From: an uncultured Lachnospiraceae bacterium
GTDB taxonomy: Bacteria > Bacillota > Clostridia > Lachnospirales > Lachnospiraceae
Direction: 5' to 3'
Length of the DNA stretch: 32,874 nucleotides
Assembly: GCA_947630855.1 (NCBI GenBank)
Contig: CANRJF010000031.1
Location: 1-32,874, forward strand
This document shows, piece by piece, positions 4,201-18,546 of this stretch. Every line of letters begins with the position of its first letter. Position 1 is the stretch's first letter. The translations under genes were made by a program, and so were the position numbers. The notes under the pieces are model-generated. The model made no database searches. It saw only the letters and a program-made list of their open reading frames with translations, and had not been told where the DNA came from.

Positions 4201-4299
4201 ATGATTGGGATAATCGGCTTGCTGATTGCCTTTGGTAGCTTTGTTATAGCGTTGCTTGCCTTTCTCGACAGAGATAAGGATCACAAGCGAAAAAAATAA
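4201..4299 (+). CDS. Small holin-like membrane peptide (candidate type I toxin)
   Basis: A 32-residue peptide with one hydrophobic helix (residues 2-22) followed by a very polar basic tail (DRDKDHKRKK). This is the hallmark of putative holin-like/TxpA-type toxins that insert in the membrane. It has an excellent GGGAGG site 6-7 bases before ATG 4201. Immediately downstream, convergent terminators and an opposing strong promoter define an antisense RNA overlapping its 3' end, as in txpA/ratA. Its own promoter could not be located with confidence; it may lie within the ABC fragment. The assignment is by size, composition and layout; toxicity is inference. Confidence 0.65.
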   Translation: MIGIIGLLIAFGSFVIALLAFLDRDKDHKRKK

Positions 4300-4421
4300 A
4301 GCCCACCCTGTTGAGACCAGGATGGGCGCCTCTCACTGAGAGGTAAATAGTCCGCTTGGGAAACTCCACCTTTGGAGTGGGGATCCTATGGGACACCTGT
4401 TACCAGCAGGTGTCCTTCTTT
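4290..4421 (-). ncRNA. Candidate antisense antitoxin RNA (RatA-like)
   Basis: A minus-strand promoter at 4428-4456 predicts a start near 4421. The transcript would run about 130 nt to a GC-rich stem-loop (4327-4301) followed on the minus strand by TTTATTTTTT (4300-4291), an intrinsic terminator. It would be complementary to the 3' untranslated region of the small peptide gene and to its last few codons. The segment also folds into several other stem-loops (CCTCTC/GAGAGG, ACTCCA/TGGAGT, GGACACCTG/CAGGTGTCC). The layout matches known 3'-overlapping type I antitoxins. Confidence 0.55.
4391..4421 (+). terminator. Terminator of the small peptide mRNA
   Basis: A perfect 9-bp stem GGACACCTG/CAGGTGTCC (4391-4399 and 4407-4415) with a 7-base loop is followed by TTCTTT. 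It would end the plus-strand toxin mRNA about 120 nt after its stop codon, giving a long 3' UTR available for antisense pairing. Confidence 0.65.
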
Positions 4422-4477: not shown

Positions 4478-4528
4478 TTGACATGGTGTCAAAAAGGATT
4501 TATAATACAAACACTGACACAATGTCAG
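4478..4528 (+). promoter_or_regulatory. Exact-consensus promoter with two TetR-type operators
   Basis: TTGACA (4478-4483), 17-bp spacer and TATAAT (4501-4506) match the sigma-A consensus at every position. Two copies of the palindrome TGACA-N3-TGTCA flank it: copy 1 (4478-4492, with extra TT/AA ends) covers the -35 box, and copy 2 (4514-4528) covers the expected start site. Centres are 36 bp apart. A maximal promoter with operators at -35 and +1 is the classical design for tight repression. The TetR gene two cistrons down is the obvious repressor, though binding is not shown. Confidence 0.8.
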
Positions 4529-4555
4529 AATATTTCTGAAAAGGAGCATACAGAT

Positions 4556-5119
4556 ATGAAAAAGAACATTGGCTCTCAATTAGCCTTATATCCTACCCCT
4601 GTAACAGTGATTGGAGCAATGGATGGTGAAAAGCCGACATGGACGCTGGTTGCTCATGTTGGGATTATCGGGCATGACCGCGTATTGGTAAGTCTTGCTG
4701 CCCCGCATTTTATCAATCATTGTATCAAGGAGAATCAGAAGCTGTCTATCAATATCGTAAACGAGGATTTTTTGCCGGAGGCGGATTACAGCGGGTCAGT
4801 CAGTGGCGCGAAGGAAGATAAATCAAAATTGTTTCAATATGAGCTTGGAGCTTCTGGAACGCCAATCATTGAAAAAGCGCCGCTGACAATGGAATGCAGT
4901 GTTGTGGATGTATATAATACACCGAATTTTGAAAGTTTTATCTGTATGATTGATAATACCTATGTGGAGGAAGTGTATTTGAATGAGGATGGAAAGATTA
5001 ATTATCAGACATTAAAGCCTGTTCTGTTTGAGTTCCCGACCTATGAGTATTTGAGGACGGGGGAAGTGATCGCACCTTGCCTGTCCTATGCAAAAGAGAT
5101 AAAAAAGGGAGAAAAGTAA
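4556..5119 (+). CDS. Flavin reductase family protein (DIM6/NTAB type)
   Basis: A 187-residue protein with the flavin-reductase-like split-barrel pattern (PF01613 type): YPTPVTVIGAMDG at the N-terminus, NIVNEDFL, the SGSVSGAKEDKSKLF flavin-binding region, and CSVVDVYNTPNFESFIC in the dimer core. Such proteins bind FMN and either reduce free flavin or act as flavoredoxin electron carriers in the cytoplasm. The frame extends upstream to 4478, but that codon lies inside the promoter. ATG 4556 has AAGGAG at 9 bases. It is the first gene of the redox operon, followed after one base by the TetR gene. It could supply reduced or oxidised flavin to the flavodoxins downstream. Confidence 0.85.
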   Translation: MKKNIGSQLALYPTPVTVIGAMDGEKPTWTLVAHVGIIGHDRVLVSLAAPHFINHCIKENQKLSINIVNEDFLPEADYSGSVSGAKEDKSKLFQYELGASGTPIIEKAPLTMECSVVDVYNTPNFESFICMIDNTYVEEVYLNEDGKINYQTLKPVLFEFPTYEYLRTGEVIAPCLSYAKEIKKGEK

Positions 5120-5120
5120 G

Positions 5121-5747
5121 ATGCCAAAAGGATCACCGGAACTGACGCAGGCGAGAAAAGACGAGATTATTGCCGCCTGCGAGCAGTTATATCAGACTAT
5201 GAGTTTTAAGGAGATTACCTTAAAGGAAATCGGGGAAGTAACTTCTTTTACGAGAACTTCCATCTACAATTATTTTCATACGAAAGAGGAAATTTTTCTT
5301 GCCCTGCTGAAAAAAGAGTATGAACTGTGGATTGAAGAATTGCAGGTGATTATGAAGGATAATGAAAGGCTTACCCGGACTGCATTTGCGGAAAAGATTG
5401 CCACAAGTCTGGAACATCGGCGGCAGCTCCTTAAGATTATGTCTATGAATATGTATGACATGGAGGCAAACAGTAGGATGGAAAACCTTGTGGAGTTTAA
5501 GAAAGCGTATGGGATGTCATTAAAGACATTTGCGGAGCTGGTTTCCAAGTTTTTCCCGGCTATGAGTGCACAAGAGTGCCAAACCTTTATTTATCAGTTT
5601 TTTCCCTTTATTTATGGCATTTATCCTTATACGGCTGTAACGGATAAACAAAGGGAGGCAATGAAGGAAGCGGATGTAGGCTATGTTTACATGTCTGTTT
5701 ATGATATTACGCTGAAATGTTTACTGAGGCTTTTGCCTGAGGAATAA
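5121..5747 (+). CDS. TetR family regulator of the redox operon
   Basis: A 208-residue protein. Residues ~10-55 form a full TetR DNA-binding domain (ITLKEIGEVTSFTRTSIYNYF followed by HTKEEIF). The C-terminal helical domain is of the type that senses small hydrophobic ligands. It is the second gene of the operon, separated from the flavin reductase by a single base and without a terminator before the next genes, so it is probably autoregulated. The palindromes at 4478-4492 and 4514-4528 are its likely operators. The inducer is unknown; quinones, nitro-compounds or other electrophiles are reasonable guesses from the regulated enzymes. Confidence 0.85.
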   Translation: MPKGSPELTQARKDEIIAACEQLYQTMSFKEITLKEIGEVTSFTRTSIYNYFHTKEEIFLALLKKEYELWIEELQVIMKDNERLTRTAFAEKIATSLEHRRQLLKIMSMNMYDMEANSRMENLVEFKKAYGMSLKTFAELVSKFFPAMSAQECQTFIYQFFPFIYGIYPYTAVTDKQREAMKEADVGYVYMSVYDITLKCLLRLLPEE

Positions 5748-5776: not shown

Positions 5777-5944
5777 ATGAATTTACCGAAGATTGCAATG
5801 GGCGCATGGGCATGGGGAGATACAGATGGCTATTTTGGAAATACGATGACAGGAGAAGAATTTCGCCCGATTTTTGACGCGGCAATGAAAGCAGGCATAA
5901 TGCCATACAGTTTTGGGAAAGCAGAATGGAGTAAGAAAGGGTGA
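5777..5944 (+). pseudogene. Aldo/keto reductase N-terminal remnant
   Basis: A 55-codon frame with a good AGGAGG site. It starts MNLPKIAMGAWAWGD and has a FRPIFDAAMKAG segment, matching the first ~40 residues of aldo/keto reductases (first strand, cofactor loop, first helix). After AMKAG the family should continue with the strand carrying the catalytic Asp, but here it switches to an unrelated tail and stops. The catalytic D, Y, K and H are all missing, so it is an internal-deletion relic. A full-length but different AKR lies 1 kb downstream in the same operon. Confidence 0.6.
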
Positions 5945-5948
5945 GAAT

Positions 5949-6482
5949 ATGAGGATTGTCGTTTTGGAAGGAAGCCCGCATAAAAAGGGTTCATCAAATT
6001 TACTGGCAGAACAGTTTATTAAGGGCGCAGAAGAAGCCGGACATTCTGTTACGGTCCTGGATGCCGCACACATGGATATGCACCCATGTCTGGGATGTGA
6101 ACATTGCGGCATGAATGGGGAGTGTGTCTATAAAGATGATAACCACATCATCCGGGATGCTCTGCTTGCTTCAGATATGGTGGTGTTTGTTACGCCAATT
6201 TATTATTTCGGCATGTCAGCGCAGCTTAAAATGGTAATCGATAGGTTTTATAGCTATACTACAAGGCTGTCGGGAAAGCATCTGAAGGCAGCGCTGATTA
6301 CAGCGGCGTGGGATTCCGATAAGGATGTAATGCCTTATACGGCGGAACATTATAAAAAACTGTGCCGTTATATGAATTTTGAGAATGTGGGGATGGTTCT
6401 TGGAACCGGGTGCGGTTCCCCGTCCATGACGCAGGGAACAAAACATATGAAGGATGCTTATGATTTAGGAAAAACAATATAA
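5949..6482 (+). CDS. Iron-sulfur flavoprotein-type NADPH-dependent FMN reductase
   Basis: A 177-residue protein. The N-terminal LEGSPHKKGSSN loop binds FMN phosphate. Cysteines C47, C50, C53 and C59 form CX2CX2CX5C, the compact [4Fe-4S] motif of Isf-type proteins, and the TPIYYFGMSAQLKMVIDR segment is characteristic of the family. It is a soluble electron-transfer or reductase enzyme. ATG 5949 follows an AAGGGTGAG site just 4 bases after the AKR remnant stop. A frame extension to 5913 overlaps that remnant and lacks a ribosome site. The donor may be ferredoxin or NAD(P)H; the sequence does not decide. Confidence 0.85.
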   Translation: MRIVVLEGSPHKKGSSNLLAEQFIKGAEEAGHSVTVLDAAHMDMHPCLGCEHCGMNGECVYKDDNHIIRDALLASDMVVFVTPIYYFGMSAQLKMVIDRFYSYTTRLSGKHLKAALITAAWDSDKDVMPYTAEHYKKLCRYMNFENVGMVLGTGCGSPSMTQGTKHMKDAYDLGKTI

Positions 6483-6501
6483 AATTTTGGAGGAAAATAT
6501 A

Positions 6502-6981
6502 ATGAGTAAAATATTAGTAGCATATTTCAGTGCAAGCGGGGTAACAAAAAAAGCAGCCGAAAATCTGGCACAGGCTGCAGGGGCTGATTTGTATGAAATT
6601 AGACCTGCCGTGCCTTACACCCGTGCAGATCTTGACTGGATGGATAAAAAATCCCGCAGCAGCGTGGAGATGAATGATAAGTCCAGCCGTCCGGCTATTG
6701 CGGATAGCGATGCTGAAATCTCACGGTATGATACCATCTTCCTGGGATTCCCGATATGGTGGTATGTGGCCCCGGCCATTGTGAATAGTTTTCTGGAAAG
6801 TTATGATTTTTCAGGAAAGAGGATTATATTGTTTGCCACTTCCGGCGGCAGCGGATTCGGGAAAACGGCAGCCGGGTTGAAGGGTTCCGTTGCGGCAGAT
6901 ACAGCCATTGTCGAGGGGAAGATATTGAATGGGGCAAATAGTGTAGATAACTTACGAAAATGGGTAGAAACGATATTGTAA
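6502..6981 (+). CDS. Cytosolic flavodoxin (Flavodoxin_4 type)
   Basis: A 159-residue protein without signal peptide. KILVAYFSASGVTKKAA is the FMN-phosphate loop, PYTRADLDWMDKKSRSSVEMND the family's conserved insert, GFPIWWYVAP the loop packing on the isoalloxazine, and FATSGGSGFGK the second flavin loop. It is likely a low-potential electron carrier or a flavodoxin-type reductase. Start ATG 6502 has GGAGG 9 bases upstream; the upstream TTG at 6487 is part of that site. It is closely related to the lipoprotein at 10857 and the C-terminal domain of the protein at 11594, making a three-member set in one operon. Confidence 0.85.
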   Translation: MSKILVAYFSASGVTKKAAENLAQAAGADLYEIRPAVPYTRADLDWMDKKSRSSVEMNDKSSRPAIADSDAEISRYDTIFLGFPIWWYVAPAIVNSFLESYDFSGKRIILFATSGGSGFGKTAAGLKGSVAADTAIVEGKILNGANSVDNLRKWVETIL

Positions 6982-6995
6982 GGAGAATTTTGAAA

Positions 6996-8006
6996 ATGAA
7001 ATATGTAAAATTAGGGAAATCAGATTTAAAAGTATCCCGCATCTGCATGGGATGCATGGGTTTTGGCAATGCGGCTGCCGGACAGCATAGCTGGACAGTG
7101 GATGAAAATCAGACGAGGGAAATCATAAAACACGGTTTGGAACTTGGCATTAATTTCTATGATACAGCCATTGCCTACCAGAATGGAACCAGTGAGCAGT
7201 TTGTGGGAAAGGCGCTTCGGGATTTTGCGAAGCGTGATGAATATGTGATTGCCACAAAATTTACCCCGCGTACACAGGAGGAGATTGATTCCGGCGTCAG
7301 CGGGCAGCAGCACATTGAAAATTATATCAATAAGAGCCTTGAAAATCTCGGCATGGATTTTGTTGATTTATACATTTACCATATGTGGGATCACCATACC
7401 CCAATGGAGGAGATTATGGAAGGGCTGAATAATGTCGTAAAGGCAGGTAAAGCCCGTTATATTGGAATATCCAACTGTTTTGCCTGGCAGCTTGCCAAGG
7501 CGAATTATTACGCAAGGTCACAGGGATTTGCGGAGTTTGTATCCATCCAGGGGCATTATAACCTGATTGCCCGTGAGGAAGAGCGGGAAATGGCGCCTTT
7601 CTGTTATTCAGAAAATATTGCTATGACGCCATACAGCGCGCTGGCAAGCGGAAGGCTGTCCCGCCATCCCGGCGAAACTTCAAAGCGGATGGAAGAGGAT
7701 TCCTATGCACGGTTCAAATATGATGCTACGGCAGAGGCTGATGGAAAAATAATCAAGCGTGTTGAAGAAATTGCGGAGAAACGCGGCGTTTCCATGACAG
7801 AGGTTTCCCTTGCATGGCTTTTGACGAAGGTGACAAGCCCCGTGGTGGGAGCAACGAAGTTTTCCCATGTGGATGGCGCTGTAAAAGCGGTGGATTTGGA
7901 ACTGACGGAAGATGAGATTAATTATCTGGAGGAACTGTATGTTCCCCATGCCCTTGCGGGTGTTATGGCGCAGAATGGCAAACAAAAAGCAGGAAATGTT
8001 GTATAA
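6996..8006 (+). CDS. Aldo/keto reductase
   Basis: A 336-residue NAD(P)H-dependent aldo/keto reductase with the complete catalytic tetrad: D56 (NFYDTA), Y61 (AYQNG), K88 (VIATKF) and H129 (YIYHMWD). The C-terminal SPVVGATKFSHVDGAVKAV segment is the usual NADPH-binding region. It reduces carbonyls to alcohols in the cytosol; in the bacterial YhdN/IolS-like branch, methylglyoxal, quinones and other aldehydes are common substrates. ATG 6996 has AAGGAG 9 bases upstream. It lies 14 bases after the flavodoxin gene, inside the TetR-linked operon, consistent with a reactive-carbonyl or electrophile response. Substrate not identified. Confidence 0.9.
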   Translation: MKYVKLGKSDLKVSRICMGCMGFGNAAAGQHSWTVDENQTREIIKHGLELGINFYDTAIAYQNGTSEQFVGKALRDFAKRDEYVIATKFTPRTQEEIDSGVSGQQHIENYINKSLENLGMDFVDLYIYHMWDHHTPMEEIMEGLNNVVKAGKARYIGISNCFAWQLAKANYYARSQGFAEFVSIQGHYNLIAREEEREMAPFCYSENIAMTPYSALASGRLSRHPGETSKRMEEDSYARFKYDATAEADGKIIKRVEEIAEKRGVSMTEVSLAWLLTKVTSPVVGATKFSHVDGAVKAVDLELTEDEINYLEELYVPHALAGVMAQNGKQKAGNVV

Positions 8007-8024
8007 ATGAAGGAGGATAAGAAA

Positions 8025-8780
8025 ATGGAGAAAATTGTACAGACAGCAGGAAAAATGCAGCTTGGTGATTTTGCGCCGGAGTTTGCGCATTACAATGATG
8101 ACGTACTGTTCGGGGAGAACTGGAATAATCAGGATATTGACCTGAAGACCCGCTGCATTGTGACGATGGTTGCGCTTATGGCTTCCGGCATTACGGATTC
8201 TTCGCTGGTTTATCATTTAGAAAATGCAAAGGCGCACGGCGTAACGAGGGCTGAGGCTGCGGCAATCATTACCCATGCCGCTTTCTATGTGGGATGGCCG
8301 AAGGGCTGGGCGGTGTTTAGGCTGGCGAAGGACGTGTGGAAAGAGGAAACTGTGGGGGAAGATGCCAAAGCTGCCCATGGGGCGCAGATGGTATTCCCGA
8401 TTGGCGCGCCCAATGACGGCTTTGCGCAGTATTTTACAGGACAAAGTTTCCTTGCCCCCCTTTCCACATCCCAGGTTGGGATTTTTAATGTAACCTTTGA
8501 GCCGGGGTGCCGCAATAACTGGCATATCCACCATGCCGACAAGGGCGGCGGCCAGATTCTGGTCTGTGTTGCAGGGCGTGGGTATTATCAGGAAGAAGGA
8601 AAAGAAGCGCAGGAACTTCATCCGGGGGATGTGGTCAATATTCCGGTCGGCGTAAAGCACTGGCATGGTGCGGCAAAGGATAGCTGGTTCTCCCATCTGG
8701 CTGTTGAGGTTCCCGGCGAGAACGGTTCCAATGAATGGCTGGAGCCTGTTACGGAGGAAATATATTCTTTGCTGAAGTAA
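8025..8780 (+). CDS. Carboxymuconolactone decarboxylase-like protein with C-terminal cupin
   Basis: A 251-residue two-domain protein. Residues ~1-110 resemble the CMD/AhpD fold (YHLENAKAHGVTRAEAAAIITHAAFYVGWPKG) but lack the CXXC of peroxidase-active AhpD. Residues ~130-245 form a cupin with a histidine metal cluster (WHIHHADKG, later IPVGVKHWHG). Such fusions are common next to flavodoxins and AKRs in Clostridia; the reaction is undefined, and decarboxylation or isomerisation is possible. ATG 8025 has AAGGAGG at 8 bases; the in-frame ATG at 8007 precedes that site and is unlikely. Neighbouring genes are 18 and 12 bases away. Confidence 0.85.
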   Translation: MEKIVQTAGKMQLGDFAPEFAHYNDDVLFGENWNNQDIDLKTRCIVTMVALMASGITDSSLVYHLENAKAHGVTRAEAAAIITHAAFYVGWPKGWAVFRLAKDVWKEETVGEDAKAAHGAQMVFPIGAPNDGFAQYFTGQSFLAPLSTSQVGIFNVTFEPGCRNNWHIHHADKGGGQILVCVAGRGYYQEEGKEAQELHPGDVVNIPVGVKHWHGAAKDSWFSHLAVEVPGENGSNEWLEPVTEEIYSLLK

Positions 8781-8792
8781 TGGAGGATGGCG

Positions 8793-9863
8793 ATGAAAAA
8801 ATGGATTTCTTTTTTCTTTTCGGTGCTTTTGCTGCTGGCTATGGCGGGCTGTGGACAAAGCGCAGACAGGACAGAAGCTCAGAAAAGCAGTCCTGATTCA
8901 GAGAATACCGCTTCTGCAGGCCATCAGGAAGAGGCCGCAGATGATACAGCAGGAAGCGAAGAATTACCGCCAGCGGCGGAAGATACAAATATTGGTGAAA
9001 AGACAAGTTCCCCAGTTGTGTATATGACTACCGATATAAGCCCGGAGGGTTTGATGGCAATCTATGAGGCTCTGGGAGCCGAACCGGAGGGAAAGGTTGC
9101 GGTAAAACTTTCCACAGGGGAAGAGGGGAGCAATTATCTGCGCCCGGAACTGATCGGGGATCTGGTACAGGCTTTAGATGCAACAATTGTGGAGTGCAAT
9201 ACTGCCTACGGCGGGCAGCGCGCGAATACGGCGATGCATTATCAGTTGGCAGAAGACCATGGATATACGGCAATCGCGGATGTGGACATTATGGATTCTG
9301 ATGGTTCCATGACGCTTAAAGCAGCCGGAGGCGATAATCTGACGGAGAACTATGTGGGGGCGCATTTTGCCGATTATGATTATTATGTGATACTCTCCCA
9401 TTTCAAAGGCCATGCGATGGCTGGATATGGCGGCGCGATTAAGAATATCTCCATAGGCATTGCGTCGTCAGAAGGAAAAAGCCATATCCATACAGGCGGA
9501 AAAGGCGGCAGTATGTGGAGCGCGGATCAGGATTCTTTTCTGGAATCCATGGCGGAAGCCGGAAAATCTGTAACAGACTATCTGGACGGGAATATTCTGT
9601 ACATCAATGTAATGAACAGGCTCTCCGTGGATTGTGATTGTGATGGGAGCCCATCGGAACCCGATATGCATGACATAGGTATTCTGGCTTCTTTTGACCC
9701 GGTGGCAGTGGATCAGGCTTGTATTGACCTTGTATATAGCGCTGAGGATGGGGCGTCTTTGGTAGACCGGATTGAATCGAGAAACGGGCTCCATACGTTA
9801 GAGCAGGCGGAAAAAATCGGGCTTGGCAGCAGGGCGTATCAGTTGGTTTCTATTGACAAATAG
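8793..9863 (+). CDS. DUF362 domain lipoprotein
   Basis: A 356-residue protein with a lipoprotein signal (hydrophobic core then LAMAGC, lipidated C20), so it is anchored outside the membrane. A low-complexity acidic/serine linker (residues ~22-65) precedes a DUF362 domain: AVKLSTGEEGSNYLRPELI, CNTAYGG, the SHFKGHAMAGYGGAIKNISIG core, and VDCDCDGSPSEPDMHDIGI, where the paired cysteines may bind metal. DUF362 domains elsewhere accompany ferredoxin modules; none is attached here. ATG 8793 is chosen because GGAGG is 6 bases away; the ATG at 8787 abuts the site. Role unknown; an extracytoplasmic redox or metal function fits the operon. Confidence 0.8.
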   Translation: MKKWISFFFSVLLLLAMAGCGQSADRTEAQKSSPDSENTASAGHQEEAADDTAGSEELPPAAEDTNIGEKTSSPVVYMTTDISPEGLMAIYEALGAEPEGKVAVKLSTGEEGSNYLRPELIGDLVQALDATIVECNTAYGGQRANTAMHYQLAEDHGYTAIADVDIMDSDGSMTLKAAGGDNLTENYVGAHFADYDYYVILSHFKGHAMAGYGGAIKNISIGIASSEGKSHIHTGGKGGSMWSADQDSFLESMAEAGKSVTDYLDGNILYINVMNRLSVDCDCDGSPSEPDMHDIGILASFDPVAVDQACIDLVYSAEDGASLVDRIESRNGLHTLEQAEKIGLGSRAYQLVSIDK

Positions 9864-9880: not shown

Positions 9881-10786
9881 ATGTTGGATGTGCTGCGCCG
9901 GGAATCTGTTTATATCTGGTACTATTTCAGTATCCAGCTTGAACAGATTTTCAGATACTGGATATTTGGAATGGTGATTGGTTCCGTCATATCCGTTTTT
10001 GCAAAAGATAAAATACATAAGTTGTTTGACGGTATGCGGGATAAAAAGCTGGGGCTGTTTGGCATTATCCCGGCCTGCATACTGGGTATCCTTTCTCCTT
10101 TATGTATGTATGGGACGATTCCCATTGCCGCTTCTTTTTCGGAAAAAGGTATGCGGGATGACTGGCTGGCTGCTTTTATGATGGCTTCTGTCCTTCTGAA
10201 TCCGCAGCTTATGATTTACAGTGGGGCGCTTGGAGGGACGGCGCTCATCATCCGTCTGGCATCCTGCTTTCTGTGCGGTGCGGCAGCGGGGCTTCTGGTA
10301 TTTTTCTGTTTCAGAGGGAAACAGTTCTTCAATTTTTCCGGTTTTGCCGCCCCGCATAGCCGGGACACTGACCCGAACCCGGCATTACGCCTGTTAAAGA
10401 ATTTCGGGCGGAATGTGAGAGCAACCGGGCCGATGTTTCTGCTGGGTGTGCTGTTGTCTGCGTTATTCCAGCGGTATGTTCCTGCCGATACTTTTGCGGA
10501 ATTTTTCGGGAAAAATAATGAGGGCTTTGGCGTGCTCATGGCGGCAACGGTAGGTGTTCCTCTTTATGCCTGCGGAGGGGGAACGATCCCTCTCCTTTTG
10601 CAGTGGCTTTCGGATGGGATGAGTATGGGAAGTGCTGCGGCGTTTATGATTACCGGCCCGGCAACAAAGATTACAAATCTTGGAGCGGTGAAGATTGTTC
10701 TTGGCATGAAGCATTTTATCTTTTATTTATCCTTTGTGATGTTTTTTTCCCTGCTTTTTGGGATGCTGGTAAATTTGGTTATATGA
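9881..10786 (+). CDS. ArsP/DUF318-type permease
   Basis: A 301-residue membrane protein with about eight helices in two related halves. Duplicated signature segments include GILSPLCMYGTIPIA in the first half and GVPLYACGGGTIPLL in the second, plus TGPATKITNLGAVK. This is the PF03773 permease family, which includes ArsP (organoarsenical efflux) and predicted copper/zinc effluxers. Cysteines sit in both signature loops (PLC and YAC), which would suit a thiophilic metal or metalloid. It lies 17 bases after the DUF362 gene in the operon. No arsR, arsM or metal-chaperone gene is nearby, so the substrate is open. Confidence 0.75.
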   Translation: MLDVLRRESVYIWYYFSIQLEQIFRYWIFGMVIGSVISVFAKDKIHKLFDGMRDKKLGLFGIIPACILGILSPLCMYGTIPIAASFSEKGMRDDWLAAFMMASVLLNPQLMIYSGALGGTALIIRLASCFLCGAAAGLLVFFCFRGKQFFNFSGFAAPHSRDTDPNPALRLLKNFGRNVRATGPMFLLGVLLSALFQRYVPADTFAEFFGKNNEGFGVLMAATVGVPLYACGGGTIPLLLQWLSDGMSMGSAAAFMITGPATKITNLGAVKIVLGMKHFIFYLSFVMFFSLLFGMLVNLVI

Positions 10787-10856: not shown

Positions 10857-11597
10857 ATGATGAAAAAATTTCAGAAAGTGATTGGATTTATGTGTATGAT
10901 AGCAATGTTAGTTTGTTTTACAGCTTGCGGCTCTTCCAGCGACAACCAGAAAACAGACGAGAAATCTGATACGCCGGAAACGACAGTTTCACAGCAGGAG
11001 GAAACGGATGAGAGCCCGGATGCCGGGGCTGGGGAGTCCACCGGGGAACAGGATGTCCCTGTGGCAGAGCCGGCAGATACAGAAGAAACGGAGGAAGAAA
11101 ATAGCAAGGTGCTGGTGGCTTATTTCTCTGCAACTGGAACAACAAAGACATTAGCTGAGTATGCCGCAGATGCCATGGGGGCAGATCTGTACGAGATCGT
11201 GCCGGAGGAACCGTATACAGACGATGATTTGAATTATAGTGACCGTAATACAAGGGCGACGGTAGAGCAGAATGACAAAAATGCCCGGCCTGCCATTTCC
11301 GGCAGTGTGGAAAATATGGAGCAGTATGAGATCGTGTTTCTTGCTTTCCCAATCTGGTGGGGCGAGGAACCCCGCATTATGGATACTTTTGTGGAAGCCT
11401 ATGACTTCTCCGGAAAAACGGTTGTTCCGTTCTGTACATCCGGCGGCAGCGGGATTGGCTCCAGTGGGAAAAATATGCAGAGCTTAAGCACAGGTGACGC
11501 TACATGGCTGGACGGCGAGCGTTTAGGCAGTTCATCTTCCCGTGAGGATATAGTAAATTGGATTAATGGTCTTGGACTGGATGTGGAGGCAAAGTGA
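10857..11597 (+). CDS. Flavodoxin lipoprotein
   Basis: A 246-residue protein with a lipoprotein signal peptide (CFTAC, lipidated C24), a ~55-residue acidic, Ser/Thr/Glu-rich linker, and then a complete Flavodoxin_4 domain from residue ~83: KVLVAYFSATGTTKTLA, DRNTRATVEQND, AFPIWWGEEP, FCTSGGSGIG. Flavodoxins are normally cytosolic. Here export by Sec and membrane anchoring place FMN chemistry on the outer face, as in the flavoprotein lipoproteins used for extracellular electron transfer, although those bind FMN covalently. ATG 10857 has GGAGG 6 bases upstream. Its stop overlaps the GTG start of the large fusion protein by 4 bases, so the two are coupled. Confidence 0.85.
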   Translation: MMKKFQKVIGFMCMIAMLVCFTACGSSSDNQKTDEKSDTPETTVSQQEETDESPDAGAGESTGEQDVPVAEPADTEETEEENSKVLVAYFSATGTTKTLAEYAADAMGADLYEIVPEEPYTDDDLNYSDRNTRATVEQNDKNARPAISGSVENMEQYEIVFLAFPIWWGEEPRIMDTFVEAYDFSGKTVVPFCTSGGSGIGSSGKNMQSLSTGDATWLDGERLGSSSSREDIVNWINGLGLDVEAK

Positions 11598-13795
11598 AAC
11601 ATAAAGCATTTATTAAAAGAATCATTGATGCGGTAATGCTCTTTTTGCTTCCGGTGCTTATGGCAGAAATTTTGACGGGACAACAGGCACATGAATGGCT
11701 TGGAACAGGCATGGTGTTATTGTTTATTCTGCACCATATCCTTAACTTTGGCTGGATGCGGAATCTGTTTAAGGGAATGTATTCCCCCCTTCGGTGCGCG
11801 GGGACAGCCCTTAATATCTTATTGCTTTTTGATTTTTTGGCTTTGGCATCCAGCGGCATTATGATGAGCGGCTTTGTCTTTGAATGGCTGCCTTTTTCGG
11901 GAGGGATGATAACTGCCCGCACGTTACACTTATTTGCTTCCCATTGGGGACTTATTTTGATGTCCCTGCATACCGGAATGCATTGGAAATTCGTTTTGGA
12001 TATGTGTAAAAGGAAACTGCCGGAGATAAAATCAGAGGATGTGTTTCTTTGGCTGCTGCGGGGAGTCGCTTTTGGAATCGTACTGTTTGGCATCTACGCC
12101 TTTGTGCAGCAGAAAATGACGGACTATCTTTTTATGGGGACACATTTTGTCTTTTTTGATGAAACAAAATCCGTGTTTCTGTTTTATGCGGAAGTGGCTG
12201 CTATGATTGGTATGTTTATTGTGGCAGGGCACTACTTCGGGATGATTTTACAAAAATGGAGGTGTGGTGAAATGGGAAGAAAGATTGCAAAGGTTTTGGC
12301 ATTTTGTATTCCGGTTGCTGTGATTGCCGTTGTAATTTTTTCCTTAAATCATGGCGGCAGTAAGCCGGGAGATACATGGGGTGAAGGCTCTCCGTCTCAG
12401 GAAGAAAATACAGAAAGCAGGAATCCGACGCAGGAAGAAACTGCACAATCGCAAACGGGAAGTCCTGCGGTGCGGACAGATATAGAGGATGGATTTATTT
12501 TGATTTCAGGCGGTACGTTTGAAATGGGAAGTCCGAATGAGGAAGCATGGCGGAGTGATGATGAAACGCTGCATACCGTAACGGTAAATGATTTTTATAT
12601 CAGCCCGTATGAGCTGACGCAAAAAGAATATCAGGACATCTGCGGAGAAAATCCCAGCAATTTTGTGGGCGATGACCTTCCGGTAGAAAATATCTCATGG
12701 CTGGATGCCGCCTCCTATTGTAATGCAAAAAGTGAAAGGGACGGGCTGACTCCGGTATATGTAATCGAGGGTGAAAATGTATCATGGGACCGCGATGCGG
12801 ACGGATACCGTCTGCCCACAGAGGCGGAATGGGAATATGCCTGCCGTGCGGGGACAGTAACCCCGTTCAATACGGAAACTTCAATCAGTGCGGAGGAAGC
12901 AAATTATTACGGACATTACCCTTATATGATTGAAGAAAATTATTTTTCCCAGGGAAATCTGGATACGAAACCTGGTGAATACCGGCAGACAACGGTGGCG
13001 GTGGACAGTTTTTCGCCCAATGGATACGGGCTTTATAATATGCACGGGAATGTCAGCGAATGGGTATGGGATACCTATGGCAGTTATGGTGCAGATGGGG
13101 AAACCAATCCCACCGGAGCAGAAAGCGGAAACCGGAAGGTATACCGGGGCGGAGGATGGAATGATTTTGCTAAAAATATGCGTTCCGCTTACCGTGGGAC
13201 ATTGGAGGCGGATGCTGCCAGTTTTAATTTAGGGCTTCGTCTGGTGCGTGGGGCTGTTGCTGGGGGAAATGGGATAGTACAGTCAGCTCAGACAGATAAG
13301 AGGACGGAAGGAAACGGCAGGATTTTGATTGCATATTTTTCATGGGGTGGCAATACGAGGGGTGTTGCAGAGGAAATACAGGCACAGACGGGTGCTGATT
13401 TGTTTGAGATTACCTGTGTGGAACCTTATTCTAATGATTACAATACGGTGCTTGAGGAAGCGCAGCGGGATCAGAATGCACAGGCCCGCCCAAAGCTTGC
13501 AGAACATGTGGAGAATATGGACGAGTACGACATTGTGGTGATCGGATATCCCAACTGGTGGGCATCTATCCCTATGCCGATAGCTTCTTTTTTGGAAGAG
13601 TATGATTTTTCCGGGAAATTGATTCTGCCGTTTTGCAGTCACGGCGGCGGTCGTTTTGGTCAGAGCCTTACAGCGATAGCAAAGCTGGCACCGAATGCTG
13701 AACTTGGCGAGGGGTTGTCTGTACATTATTCTGGTGGGAGTGAGCTGCCGGGTGATGTAGAAGAGTGGCTGAAAGCAAATAACCTTATTCAATAA
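11594..13795 (+). CDS. Fusion: DUF4405-like heme membrane domain + SUMF1 fold + flavodoxin
   Basis: A 733-residue three-part protein starting at GTG 11594 (GGAGG 4 bases upstream). Residues 1-250 contain seven hydrophobic segments with histidines within or beside helices (H47, H48, H112, H117, H126, H130, H213); the first part resembles DUF4405, a cytochrome b-like family. Positive charges (KHK, RNLFK, KRK, QKWR, GRK) alternate so that the N-terminus is inside and everything after residue 250 is outside. After an acidic linker (255-298), residues 299-552 form a SUMF1/formylglycine-generating-enzyme fold (ISGGTFEMGS, RLPTEAEWEYACRAG, MHGNVSEW, RGGGWND) but lack its catalytic cysteine pair. Residues 575-733 are a flavodoxin. 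It is last in the operon and may pass electrons between membrane heme and external FMN. Confidence 0.8.
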   Translation: MKHKAFIKRIIDAVMLFLLPVLMAEILTGQQAHEWLGTGMVLLFILHHILNFGWMRNLFKGMYSPLRCAGTALNILLLFDFLALASSGIMMSGFVFEWLPFSGGMITARTLHLFASHWGLILMSLHTGMHWKFVLDMCKRKLPEIKSEDVFLWLLRGVAFGIVLFGIYAFVQQKMTDYLFMGTHFVFFDETKSVFLFYAEVAAMIGMFIVAGHYFGMILQKWRCGEMGRKIAKVLAFCIPVAVIAVVIFSLNHGGSKPGDTWGEGSPSQEENTESRNPTQEETAQSQTGSPAVRTDIEDGFILISGGTFEMGSPNEEAWRSDDETLHTVTVNDFYISPYELTQKEYQDICGENPSNFVGDDLPVENISWLDAASYCNAKSERDGLTPVYVIEGENVSWDRDADGYRLPTEAEWEYACRAGTVTPFNTETSISAEEANYYGHYPYMIEENYFSQGNLDTKPGEYRQTTVAVDSFSPNGYGLYNMHGNVSEWVWDTYGSYGADGETNPTGAESGNRKVYRGGGWNDFAKNMRSAYRGTLEADAASFNLGLRLVRGAVAGGNGIVQSAQTDKRTEGNGRILIAYFSWGGNTRGVAEEIQAQTGADLFEITCVEPYSNDYNTVLEEAQRDQNAQARPKLAEHVENMDEYDIVVIGYPNWWASIPMPIASFLEEYDFSGKLILPFCSHGGGRFGQSLTAIAKLAPNAELGEGLSVHYSGGSELPGDVEEWLKANNLIQ

Positions 13796-14020: not shown

Positions 14021-15604
14021 CTATACAATGACTTCAAAAATGCGTTTTCCGTTATACGTGATGTCCTGCATCCCCGTTTTTTTGTTTTTATTGAAGTTGA
14101 AACTAAGCAGGTATCCTTCATCTACTCCATAGTGATTCAGATACTCAAATAATTGCTGCTCCCCTCTCTGATTGTATTCGTTGCCATGCCAGATTTTCAA
14201 TTCAATTATAAACTGTCTGCCGTGATAATCAATAATTATATCTGTGCGTTTTGCATCTCTTGTCTGTGCTTCAACATAGTAGTTTCCTGAACCGTTTATG
14301 ATGGGTTTCAGATACAGCAGGAAAATTTTTCTGCCTTGTTTTTCTACAAATTTTAAATCGCTGTTTCCGTATATTTCTGTGTAATGCCGATAAAAATTTT
14401 TCATAATCAGCTTCATTTGTAACATACCATTTACCACAAATTGACTGTGTTCTGTGGGAACTGCCTGATGAAGTACATCGTCCATAATCATTTCGGAAAG
14501 AAACAGGTCATATAACTTCGTTTCAAAAATGCGGTTTGCTATGGCCACGGTGCCATGCGCTTCCTTTACAAAACCAAAAGTTACACCCAGATTGATAAGG
14601 TGATTGTCTCTTTCAAATGGATATGTGGTTCCGCAAAAAAGGATATCCTGTATTATTTTTTTCAGTTTCGGGTATTCCATTAATTGCTTTACCATGTCAT
14701 CAAATAACGTATCCGGCTGTTTCCGAAGCAGCAGTTCGGCAGCAATAATCCCCTTTTTCGTCCAGACATCCCGTTTCTTGGGAAAATGTTCTGTTCCAGC
14801 CAGTCTCTCGTCGGAAAGCTGGCAAATGCGGGATACCAGATAAGGATATCCAGAGGTGTATTCATAAATCAGATTGCTGATATAGGAAATATCCATTTCT
14901 GTATGAAAATCTTTTTCATATTCTTTCAACATAGTTGCAATGTCTTTTGAAGAAAATGCCAAATCAACAGTAAAGTCTACCGCAATGTTCCAGGGGCTGT
15001 TGTACTTTGATTCTTCGCCAGGATGCAGTTTGAGTTTCAGATTTTTGATATCGTATACACCTGCCAGAACAACAGATTTAAAAGTATCATCCGCTTTCTG
15101 CAAGTGTTCCAGATATTTATTCCTCAAAAGCCCTAAAAAAGACAGGAATACCTGGTTGTCCGAACTTTTATCCACTTCATCTATAATCAGTATGATTTCT
15201 TTGCTTGAATTACGGCAAAGATTTGTAATCCGTTCGCCCAAATCATCCAGAGGAAATTGTTCAGAAATCGGCTGATTCCATTCTTCTAAAAGAAAGTGTT
15301 CGATTTCCTGTGCCTTGAGTACACGGTTGATTTTGCGAATCAGACCCAGAGCCAGGGTGTACAATGACACGAACATTTCATCAGCCGCTTCAAAACTAAT
15401 CCGTACAACCAGATATTTTTCTTTCAGGCATTGTTCTAACTGATATAGAATTGTTGTTTTACCGTATTGTCTTGCACGGTTAATGATAAAATATTTTCCT
15501 TCCTCGATATAATCTGAAATAATCTGATTGATTTTTTCATGGATGTCCACCATATAATTCTGTTCAGGGATACATACACCGGCGGTATTAAATCGTTTGG
15601 ACAT
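14021..15604 (-). CDS. AAA-like ATPase with C-terminal PD-(D/E)XK-type nuclease region
   Basis: A 527-residue protein. RARQYGKTT (residues 43-51) is a Walker A variant and IILIIDEVDK (137-146) is Walker B, as in AAA-like (PF14516-type) P-loop NTPases. The last ~80 residues contain RTDIIIDYHG...FIIELKIW, the D...ELK signature of PD-(D/E)XK nucleases, followed by QRGEQQLFEYL. A nucleotide-dependent nuclease acting on DNA or RNA is plausible; the role is unknown and such genes are often multi-copy in gut bacteria. ATG 15604 has GGAAGGTGG upstream. The longer start (ATG 15640) overlaps a likely -10 box. It is monocistronic, divergent from the DUF1963 gene. Confidence 0.75.
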   Translation of the reverse strand: MSKRFNTAGVCIPEQNYMVDIHEKINQIISDYIEEGKYFIINRARQYGKTTILYQLEQCLKEKYLVVRISFEAADEMFVSLYTLALGLIRKINRVLKAQEIEHFLLEEWNQPISEQFPLDDLGERITNLCRNSSKEIILIIDEVDKSSDNQVFLSFLGLLRNKYLEHLQKADDTFKSVVLAGVYDIKNLKLKLHPGEESKYNSPWNIAVDFTVDLAFSSKDIATMLKEYEKDFHTEMDISYISNLIYEYTSGYPYLVSRICQLSDERLAGTEHFPKKRDVWTKKGIIAAELLLRKQPDTLFDDMVKQLMEYPKLKKIIQDILFCGTTYPFERDNHLINLGVTFGFVKEAHGTVAIANRIFETKLYDLFLSEMIMDDVLHQAVPTEHSQFVVNGMLQMKLIMKNFYRHYTEIYGNSDLKFVEKQGRKIFLLYLKPIINGSGNYYVEAQTRDAKRTDIIIDYHGRQFIIELKIWHGNEYNQRGEQQLFEYLNHYGVDEGYLLSFNFNKNKKTGMQDITYNGKRIFEVIV

Positions 15605-15638
15605 ATCTGCGCCACCTTCCTGTTTTCCTTTTCTGCTC

Positions 15639-15666
15639 ATTTTACCATAATTACAAAGATGTGCAA
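15639..15666 (-). promoter_or_regulatory. Promoter of the AAA/nuclease gene
   Basis: Minus strand: -35 TTGCAC (15666-15661), 16-bp spacer, -10 TAAAAT (15644-15639). The predicted start, near 15632, is downstream of the ATG at 15640 and upstream of the chosen ATG at 15604, which supports the shorter protein. Confidence 0.5.
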
Positions 15667-16703: not shown

Positions 16704-16851
16704 AAAGTGGAAGCTTAGACCAACCATTTGGATATTTTGTGAAAAAGGGGGCAAAAAGAAAGTTTTGAAAAGCTTTTCAGGGGAAGCGGTGTTTTATCGG
16801 GTGATGGTATCCTTGTGTAATAACAGTTGATTAGGGAAAGTGAGGCTTTTT

Positions 16852-18546
16852 ATGGTGAAAAAAAAGCTGCCGGTGGGCATTGACATTTTTAATGAAATTC
16901 GCCGGAAAGGATTTTATTATATTGATAAGACAAAGCTGATTTGTGATTTACTAAATAATTGGGGCAAGGTGAACCTCTTCACCCGCCCCCGCCGGTTTGG
17001 AAAGACACTGAACATGAGTATGCTGGAGAGTTTCTTTGAGATTGGTTCGGACAAGACGCTTTTTGAGGGTCTGGCAATCAGCAGGGAAACACAGCTTTGC
17101 GAAGAGTATCAGGGCAGATATCCTGTGGTATTTCTTCCTCTGAAAGGTGTGGAGGGGCTGTCTTTTGAGGATGCCATAGATATGCTTCGCATGTTAGTGG
17201 CCATTGAATGTAATCGTCTTGCATTTCTTCTGAAAAGCGAAGCGGTGGCTGAAACTGATAAGAAGATGTTTTGTGCACTGATGCGGCGGGAAAGCTCGGA
17301 AACAGAACTGAAAAGCGCTCTGGTTACGTTGATGCGGATGCTTCATTCCCATTATGGCAGGCAGGTGATTCTGCTGATTGATGAATATGATGTGCCTTTG
17401 GACAAGGCAAACAGCAATGGTTATTATGACAAGATGGTATCATTCCTGCGGGGCTTTTTTGGTGAGGCGTTTAAGACCAATCCAGACTTGTATTTTGCTG
17501 TGGTAACCGGCTGTCTGCGTATTTCGAAGGAAAGCATTTTTACGGGAATCAATAACTTAAAGATTGATACCATTATGGACAAACGTTATGATGAATATTT
17601 TGGCTTCACGGATGAGGAGGTGCAAAATATGCTGGAGGACTACGGCTTGTCTTATGCTTACCAGGACATGAAAGACTGGTACGATGGCTACCATTTTGGC
17701 GATGCGGATGTGTACTGCCCGTGGGATGTGGTCAATCATTGCGACAAGCTTCTGGAAGACCCACAGGCAAAGCCCAAACCTTATTGGAATAATACCAGTT
17801 CCAATCAGCTTGTGCAGGATTTTATCGGGTTGGCAAATGTGACGACACAGAGGGAAATCGAGGAGCTGGTGGCTGGCGGAGGGATTAGGAAGAAAATTGT
17901 GGAAACGCTGACGTATGGAGAGTTGACAGAGAGCATTGACAATTTATGGAGCGTGCTCTTTTTAACGGGCTACCTGACGGCGGAGCGCAGTGCGCCCCAG
18001 GCGCAGGAGGGGCTGACCCGTCTGGTAATCCCCAACCGGGAGGTACGGGAAATCTTTATTGAGAAGATTCAGAAGTGGTTCCGGGAAAAATTTGTAAAGG
18101 ACGAAAAGCCTATGCAGGCGTTTTGTCAGGCTTTCTTAGACGGCAGTGCAGAAACAATCCAGAAAAGCCTGAACGTGATTCTTGGGAAAATGATTAGCAT
18201 TCTGGATGCAAAAGCGAGAGATGAGCAGAAAGAGAATTTTTACCATGGTCTGCTGCTGGGGCTTTTGCGCAGCGAACCGGACTGGCTGATTTTATCTAAT
18301 GCCGAGTCGGGGGAAGGGTTTAGTGATATTCTCATTGAGCCGGAAGACCCGGATGTGGGATTGGTTATTGAAGTGAAGTATGCTTCCAGTATTTTGGCAC
18401 TTGAGAGGGCCTGTCAGGAGGCTATGGCCCAGATAAAAGACAGACGGTATGACGAAAAACTGCGCAATGACGGCAGGGAGAATATCGGCGCATATGGTAT
18501 TGCGTTTTGCAGAAAACGGTGCAGGGTGATTTTTGAAAAGCTGTAA
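16852..18546 (+). CDS. AAA-ATPase-like protein with DUF1703/PD-(D/E)XK C-terminus
   Basis: A 564-residue protein of the AAA-ATPase_like (PF09820) plus DUF1703 (PF08011) architecture. VGIDIFNEIRRKGFYYIDKT opens the domain, RPRRFGKT (residues 45-52) is the Walker A variant, and VILLIDEYDVPLD (from ~172) is Walker B. The C-terminal nuclease fold shows D492 (GFSDIL), E507 and K509 (VIEVKY), the D...EXK set. Nuclease activity is predicted but not demonstrated for most members. ATG 16852 has GTGAGG 6 bases upstream; a GTG at 16840 lies in that site. It ends before a strong terminator. It is not homologous in detail to the ATPase at 14021, despite the same overall plan. Confidence 0.85.
   Translation: MVKKKLPVGIDIFNEIRRKGFYYIDKTKLICDLLNNWGKVNLFTRPRRFGKTLNMSMLESFFEIGSDKTLFEGLAISRETQLCEEYQGRYPVVFLPLKGVEGLSFEDAIDMLRMLVAIECNRLAFLLKSEAVAETDKKMFCALMRRESSETELKSALVTLMRMLHSHYGRQVILLIDEYDVPLDKANSNGYYDKMVSFLRGFFGEAFKTNPDLYFAVVTGCLRISKESIFTGINNLKIDTIMDKRYDEYFGFTDEEVQNMLEDYGLSYAYQDMKDWYDGYHFGDADVYCPWDVVNHCDKLLEDPQAKPKPYWNNTSSNQLVQDFIGLANVTTQREIEELVAGGGIRKKIVETLTYGELTESIDNLWSVLFLTGYLTAERSAPQAQEGLTRLVIPNREVREIFIEKIQKWFREKFVKDEKPMQAFCQAFLDGSAETIQKSLNVILGKMISILDAKARDEQKENFYHGLLLGLLRSEPDWLILSNAESGEGFSDILIEPEDPDVGLVIEVKYASSILALERACQEAMAQIKDRRYDEKLRNDGRENIGAYGIAFCRKRCRVIFEKL

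Follow-up and report, generated by a model that had tools for sequence, protein, structure and literature searches.

A gene joining DUF4405, SUMF1 and flavodoxin domains as a candidate one-chain electron path across the bacterial membrane

Why would a bacterium hold a flavodoxin outside the cell on the same polypeptide as a cytochrome-like membrane domain? The question is raised by a 733-codon open reading frame (ORF) with a GTG start at positions 11594-13795 of contig CANRJF010000031.1, from the assembly GCA_947630855.1 of an uncultured Lachnospiraceae bacterium. The whole stretch analyzed, 32,874 nucleotides long, is called the window here, and coordinates refer to its forward strand unless marked otherwise. 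The ORF encodes, in this order, a DUF4405 membrane domain, a further helix, a SUMF1 domain and a Flavodoxin_4 domain. We propose, with a probability of roughly 0.6, that its product is a transmembrane flavocytochrome in a single chain, which would carry electrons out of the cytosol to a flavin outside. The data show the domains, their conservation, the predicted topology, the gene order and the existence of fused and split versions; the hemes, the flavin mononucleotide (FMN), the direction of flow, the role of SUMF1 and the acceptor are inferred.

Fused and split versions of the gene

The first-pass annotation had described a three-part fusion, and a domain search of each segment bears this out, as all three families scored above their Pfam cut-offs: DUF4405 (PF14358) at residues 73-131 (34.2 bits, cut-off 26.7), FGE-sulfatase or SUMF1 (PF03781) at residues 299-552 (164 bits, cut-off 23.3) and Flavodoxin_4 (PF12682) at residues 576-713 (98.7 bits, cut-off 24). 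It had also spoken of a DUF4405-like start of the protein; the family is right, but the match spans helices 3 and 4 and not the very start.

Could the fusion be an artefact, in which a frameshift or an assembly error joins separate genes, as the first-pass annotation had considered? We reject this explanation. A scan of genome contigs for related loci gave 199 candidates, of which the best 80 were kept. A single ORF encodes all three parts in 60 of these 80, with a complete flavodoxin in 55 and a shortened one in five (L034, L035, L053, L055 and L056). Together with two loci from a search of relatives there are 62 fused ORFs, with 49-88% identity to the window protein. By record taxonomy they belong to the Lachnospiraceae (16), Oscillospiraceae (14), unassigned Clostridia (14), Erysipelotrichaceae (7), Anaerolineaceae (2) and others (9), and single odd labels need caution because many of these loci are metagenome bins. 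A carrier available in culture is Hungatella effluvii DSM 24995, whose protein is 84% identical. No stretch matched the patterns used for viral copies of the fusion.

In 14 of the 20 remaining loci the membrane part and the SUMF1-flavodoxin part are separate ORFs. Three of them (L036, L082 and L089) are probably broken fusions, since the second ORF begins within SUMF1 or at a stretch resembling helix 7. The other 11 are truly split, with the SUMF1-flavodoxin part as a lipoprotein gene of its own, and the two genes are adjacent in six (L091, L096, L100, L101, L102 and L107). The fused gene is in pieces in L064 and L080. No membrane part was seen in L097, L098, L106 and L109, where each stretch reaches the contig end.

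Some fused loci carry disruptions. In L034 (12440-17630), some 5 kb of inserted DNA encoding serine recombinase, Mob_Pre and Rep-type proteins splits the flavodoxin part at the codons of a GYP stretch, window residues 651-653, and the ORFs of L035 (near 12540) and L053 (near 12440) diverge from their relatives at the same place. The site resembles a hot spot for the integration of mobile elements. A 371-residue DUF4405-type ORF (L023:1477-2592) ends in a 55-residue piece of flavodoxin and has no SUMF1 domain; it is perhaps an internal deletion of the fusion.

Membrane domain and external half

The cytochrome-like domain, helices 1 to 6, comprises residues 1-221 (11594-12256). An AlphaFold2 model of residues 1-254, built on a 54-sequence alignment, has a mean predicted local distance difference test (pLDDT) score of 92.4 and a predicted template modelling (pTM) score of 0.88, and shows a six-helix bundle plus a seventh, tethering helix. 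The seven long helices (residues 2-23, 30-50, 65-91, 105-129, 148-172, 194-221 and 226-253) agree in number with the first-pass annotation. Besides fused sequences, the alignment holds 12 stand-alone DUF4405 genes and three pieces of probably broken fusions. All 54 members match DUF4405 at an E-value of 1 or less; two fused members checked besides the window protein score slightly under the family cut-off (L095, 23.5 bits; L072, 22.5 bits), and weak matches to Ferric_reduct (7/54) and Ni_hydr_CYTB (6/54) occur at the same E-value.

Eleven histidines lie within residues 1-260, at positions 3, 33, 47, 48, 112, 117, 126, 130, 184, 213 and 253. His33, His47, His112 and His126 are kept in all 41 members of a non-redundant set of fused sequences, the window included, and are among the 17 invariant columns of the 54-row alignment. 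A fifth, His130, is kept in 40 of the 41 members, and His48, His117, His184, His213 and His253 in about half or fewer. In each of the 63 fused sequences (the window plus the 62 fused loci) a gap of exactly 14 residues separates His33 from His47 and His112 from His126. Two bis-His hemes, with histidines spaced 13 to 14 residues apart along the chain, are the arrangement of b-type cytochromes, and we predict from this layout that the four histidines are the ligands of a di-heme cytochrome b. If the N-terminus is inside, the chain crosses the membrane inward in both helix 2 and helix 4; His33 (codon 11690-11692) and His112 (11927-11929) therefore lie at the outer ends of these helices and would bind an outer heme, and His47 (11732-11734) and His126 (11969-11971) lie at the inner ends and would bind an inner heme. 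For the pairing of histidines across helices that the first-pass annotation wished to see checked, this layout is indirect evidence. Published work points the same way. An HHpred analysis placed DUF4405 in the cytochrome b family (PMC5898192, cited from part of its text), and, once purified, a DUF4405 protein from an Oscillospiraceae bacterium gave heme b spectra (Huang et al. 2024, PMC11334425, here and below also cited from parts of the paper).

The first-pass annotation had put the last ~480 residues outside the cell, and two independent lines of evidence agree with it. A count of the loop Lys and Arg, for which the helix borders were placed by hand, showed a charge bias that preferred an inside N-terminus and an outside C-terminus in 41/41 non-redundant sequences. 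A lipobox-like start is also found in 16 of the 24 SUMF1-bearing ORFs that lack a membrane domain, among them those of all 11 truly split loci. The remaining eight comprise fragments or broken ORFs, two that have an uncleaved helix, and three whose starts resemble signals of another kind. SUMF1 and flavodoxin are thus predicted to lie outside in both versions. Helix 7 (residues 226-253, 12269-12352), which is predicted to bring the chain outside, stands where the split homologues have their lipoprotein signal. It is followed by an acidic, poorly conserved linker (12353-12487), whose mean pairwise identity among the 41 members is 0.135 over residues 255-296 and whose pLDDT in the full model is under 50 over residues 255-291.

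The external domains are more conserved than the membrane part. Mean pairwise identity among the same 41 members is 0.70 for SUMF1 and 0.72 for flavodoxin, compared with 0.42 for the membrane part, and 115 of 260 SUMF1 columns have at least 95% identity. SUMF1 is a C-type-lectin-like fold. A sequence search of solved structures and Foldseek gave as relatives of this domain (residues 299-552, 12488-13249) TvpA, a variable protein of Treponema denticola (2Y3C), as well as PorK and FGE. Does it then act as a formylglycine-generating enzyme? In an alignment to human FGE, whose catalytic cysteine pair we take to be positions 336/341, the window stretch aligned with the catalytic-cysteine loop is nearly invariant among homologues. 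The window protein has no cysteine between residues 418 and 607, and only one of the 63 fused sequences has any cysteine in columns 512-552. A loop that is conserved and free of cysteines excludes FGE chemistry and implies another conserved task. The SUMF1 fold and the match to TvpA also brought up a target protein of a diversity-generating system, for which no reverse transcriptase search was made; the high conservation of the SUMF1 part and its position away from the C-terminus led us to set this candidate aside.

For the flavodoxin domain (13319-13771), Foldseek and sequence search gave the putative flavoproteins 4ICI and 3KLB, the latter solved with FMN. The domain aligns with both across a Gly/Thr-rich first loop and later Trp- and Gly-rich loops, which presumably bind the flavin. 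External flavodoxins of this family are reported to show signs of flavinylation (PMC11334425), and the fusion departs from this pattern. We searched for D-x-x-[ST]-[GSA]-[AG]-[ST] as the ApbE flavinylation motif.

This motif, which we take to lie within an insertion after strand 1, is absent from the window protein, from all 62 fused ORFs and from the 24 SUMF1-bearing ORFs without a membrane domain, 22 of which have a flavodoxin. The same pattern occurs in 18 of 156 other flavodoxin ORFs of these loci, one of which (L072, near the N-terminus) is probably a chance match. The genome of the window has four Flavodoxin_4 proteins, none with the motif; three look exported, two by their start and one by the fusion. 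Its single ApbE gene sits on another contig, and no ApbE was found among the 20 window proteins scanned. Covalent flavinylation of the fused flavodoxin by ApbE was rejected, as the motif is absent.

Has the fused clade lost flavinylation, or did it never have it? A flavodoxin tree of 140 rows (137 representatives of 237 domains, clustered with a minimum of 110 residues, plus three window rows) does not separate the two. It was built by a quick method, leaves 59 of 137 inner branches open and has weak deep forks, and thus gives broad placement only. The fused rows lie on the same side as all 11 motif-bearing rows (support 94, below the mark of 95), and a set of 38 rows with 98% support in the Shimodaira-Hasegawa-like approximate likelihood ratio test (SH-aLRT) mixes fused rows with two motif-bearing rows.

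The loci contain further unusual flavodoxin proteins. The 916-residue protein of L111:776-3526 combines three flavodoxin, two Ig-like and one cyclophilin-like domain and has an ApbE-type motif. Two Ruminococcus-labelled loci encode flavodoxin-SUMF1-flavodoxin proteins with signal-like starts (L063:1596-3656 and L080:6899-8962); the N-terminus of the former matches dockerin weakly (19.8 bits, cut-off 22.9), that of the latter not at all. In L030:979-2001, whose neighbors are TetR, FMN_red and aldo/keto reductase genes, a flavodoxin is joined to a domain of the copper amine oxidase N-terminal type.

Electron path, heme supply and alternatives

How might such a protein work? The first-pass annotation wrote that a trans-membrane electron path could form, and we hypothesize the following. 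Within the DUF4405 domain, helices 2 and 4 would bind a stack of two b-type hemes that spans the membrane, the inner one on His47/His126 and the outer one on His33/His112. The source of electrons would be reduced flavin or NAD(P)H in the cytosol. Plausibly by way of the flavin reductase, the FMN_red protein or the cytosolic flavodoxin of the operon, the electrons would reach the inner heme and pass to the outer heme and on to a non-covalently bound FMN of the external flavodoxin domain. Helix 7 and the flexible acidic linker would keep the SUMF1-flavodoxin part outside. For the strongly conserved SUMF1 domain, which lacks the FGE cysteines, the most likely role is to dock the flavodoxin onto the cytochrome or to bind the final acceptor, and the lipoprotein flavodoxin encoded just upstream would be the likely next carrier.

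Several observations weigh against this proposal. Foldseek found no PDB fold match for the membrane model at an E-value of 0.001 or less, and a profile search gave no solved structure for the membrane part. The model of the whole protein has a pTM of only 0.47 and leaves the relative placement of the parts unpredicted, with pLDDT under 50 in SUMF1 stretches including residues 426-465 and 518-532. Flavodoxins commonly work at low potential, which may disfavor their reduction by a b heme. Distribution is patchy: among 145 relatives, own genome included, only three (G000, G026 and G040) have a full-length match and one (G029) the split form, and none of the 14 further genomes of the same genus has a full-length match. 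Another difficulty is the supply of heme. Ferrochelatase was not found in the genome of the window, which is 95% complete, nor in any of 50 genomes carrying a fused, split or broken system, and the same search finds it in 8 of 14 controls. AhbD above a cut-off of 500 bits was likewise found in none of 50 genomes (49 carriers and the own genome), and in one of the 14 controls; some radical-SAM match turned up in all 50 genomes and all 14 controls, the only one in the genome of the window being far under the cut-off. An IsdE-type importer over the cut-off was absent from that genome, as it was from all 14 controls.

With ferrochelatase, AhbD and the importer not found, the source of heme is a puzzle, and either the carriers scavenge heme or the membrane domain uses something else. 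The heme guess of the first-pass annotation thus fits the purified DUF4405 protein, but the known heme-synthesis genes are not found in carriers. Among the 145 relatives, DUF4405 occurs in 27 and ferrochelatase in three, with no overlap, so that the pattern is not special to carriers. Cytochrome bd was also not found in the own genome, and a search of the open-access literature for heme auxotrophy gave nothing useful by title. We nevertheless give little credence to a membrane domain that is free of heme or holds another ligand because its carriers cannot make heme. All four heme-type histidines are invariant, heme uptake is common in bacteria, the genomes of many carriers are drafts whose completeness is not stated, and in one of them (L085) an AhbD-like protein reaches 360 bits, below the cut-off. 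The published heme b was obtained in E. coli, itself a heme maker, and hence does not settle the question for the carriers (PMC11334425).

Other functions of the same anatomy have to be considered. DUF4405 could donate electrons from heme for repair or reduction as in MsrPQ, with SUMF1, as the catalytic or substrate-binding unit, acting on one kind of oxidized external protein or small molecule and the flavodoxin as relay. Models of MsrQ-like and DUF4405 proteins have a common arrangement of central histidines (PMC11334425), and SUMF1 is about as constrained as the flavodoxin. We regard this as unlikely, however, as no molybdoenzyme of the MsrP kind was matched among the 20 window proteins scanned and the SUMF1 part, devoid of the FGE cysteines, has no known catalytic residue set that we recognized. 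The anatomy does not fix the direction of flow, and reduced flavodoxins are low-potential donors; an external reductant could then feed electrons through the external flavodoxin and the hemes into the cytosol. Such inward flow seems improbable, given that none of the operon proteins scanned is clearly an external dehydrogenase and that several operon enzymes are cytosolic proteins of flavin/NAD(P)H type. Least probable of all is a sensor or receptor, in which SUMF1 would bind a ligand and the flavin and heme parts would report the redox state rather than carry flux: the closest solved SUMF1 relatives include the Treponema variable protein and PorK, yet the chain has no cytosolic output domain, and the conserved histidines and the reductase-rich operon fit electron flow better.

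What would outward electron transfer through the fusion mean for the cell? As a tentative extension, which we consider somewhat unlikely, the protein may be a self-contained electron exporter of heme-scavenging anaerobes, whose one chain combines two hemes and a non-covalent external flavodoxin with a SUMF1 fold that offers a new site for redox chemistry or for a substrate. If so, it would be active only with heme from outside, and external heme would therefore act as the switch for an anaerobic electron outlet of Clostridia and their neighbors. Because the carriers lack the heme-synthesis genes that we looked for, this raises the question of whether there are anaerobes that depend on scavenged heme for an electron outlet. 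The fusion brings three families together in a single physical route, and the SUMF1 fold gains a possible role in electron transfer.

Operon context and known systems

The fusion gene follows a reductase-rich series of genes on the same strand, all assigned by Pfam. Its GTG overlaps the stop codon of a gene for a Flavodoxin_4 lipoprotein of 246 amino acids (10857-11597, 191 bits), which is without an ApbE motif. Of the 58 fused loci whose upstream flank measures 800 bases or more, 52 have a flavodoxin ORF immediately before the fusion on the same strand, and in 48 of these 52 it has a lipobox-like start. Further upstream are an ArsP_1-family permease (9881-10786, 127 bits) and a DUF362 protein (8787-9863, 151 bits); the lipoprotein-type N-terminus of the latter puts it probably outside the cell with the flavodoxins, and 11 of 15 DUF362 ORFs of fused loci have a lipobox-like start. 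These are preceded by a carboxymuconolactone decarboxylase-cupin protein (8025-8780; listed ORF 8007-8780), an aldo/keto reductase (6996-8006, 235.6 bits; listed ORF 6960-8006), a Flavodoxin_4 without signal sequence and hence of cytosolic type (6502-6981, 242.8 bits from residue 8; listed ORF 6487-6981), an FMN_red family flavin/NAD(P)H reductase-like protein (5949-6482; listed ORF 5913-6482), a TetR regulator (5121-5747) and a flavin reductase-like protein (4556-5119, 62.1 bits; listed ORF 4478-5119).

Many of these genes recur. Within 9 kb of the 38 fused loci with sufficient flanks we counted aldo/keto reductase at 30, TetR at 22, the carboxymuconolactone decarboxylase-cupin protein and FMN_red at 19 each, cytosolic-type flavodoxin at 14, flavin reductase at 13, and DUF362 and the ArsP-type permease at 11 each; the loci are related to each other, so these counts are not independent. 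All 200 recurring operon-type neighbors are on the same strand as the fusion.

Some features of the window lie apart from this series. A 32-residue match to Hol_Tox, a holin-like toxin family (4201-4299, 29.4 bits, cut-off 23.3), and a perfect 9-nucleotide inverted repeat (4391-4415) precede the flavin reductase gene, and no Rfam family reached its gathering threshold in the window. A 55-codon ORF (5777-5944) has no Pfam match better than an E-value of 0.29; L032 and L033 have aldo/keto reductase ORFs in its place, and it may be a remnant. Downstream of the fusion, two genes for AAA-ATPase-like proteins with PD-(D/E)XK nuclease-type C-termini (14021-15640 on the reverse strand and 16840-18546 on the forward strand) flank a DUF1963 gene.

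The first-pass annotation knew of no characterized protein with this architecture, and we found none in the open-access literature either, where no description of a DUF4405-SUMF1-flavodoxin fusion came up. DUF4405 together with 'formylglycine-generating' gave no match among the papers listed there, nor did extracytosolic flavodoxin lipoproteins, and the matches listed for FGE-sulfatase with flavodoxin concern a cyanobacterium and prophages. A link to the flavin-induced neighborhood of C. scindens was rejected, as the genes named in the part of the preprint consulted are different ones (PMC12934955). New here are the fusion itself, the embedded SUMF1 without FGE catalytic cysteines and the absence of the flavinylation motif.

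The closest known systems are those of Huang et al., who linked DUF4405 by gene clusters to apbE and to external, covalently flavinylated Flavodoxin_4 proteins (PMC11334425); this partnership, published from gene neighborhoods, is confirmed by the fusion in 60 of 80 loci. As far as the parts cited describe them, both share the four-histidine membrane family, the external partner family, neighboring genes and an origin in Firmicutes. The fusion differs in being one chain, with SUMF1 in between, a seventh helix and a flavodoxin without the ApbE motif; neither 'SUMF1' nor 'formylglycine' occurs in the main text of that paper. With the hemoproteins of the MsrQ, PepSY-type and cytochrome b561 families the membrane part has in common histidines of heme-ligand type in a helical bundle, but these are separate families, and none gave a PDB fold match at the threshold used above. 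The SUMF1 part carries the family signature and fold of human FGE, PvdO, PorK/GldK and TvpA; unlike FGE it has no catalytic cysteine pair, and it is sandwiched between cytochrome and flavodoxin. The flavodoxin part resembles the Bacteroides Flavodoxin_4 proteins 3KLB and 4ICI in its fold and loop stretches, whereas those chains are single domains of 160-170 residues and the fused domain is on a tether outside the cell. Listeria-type flavin-based extracellular electron transfer does the same job in outline, the passing of electrons to external flavins.

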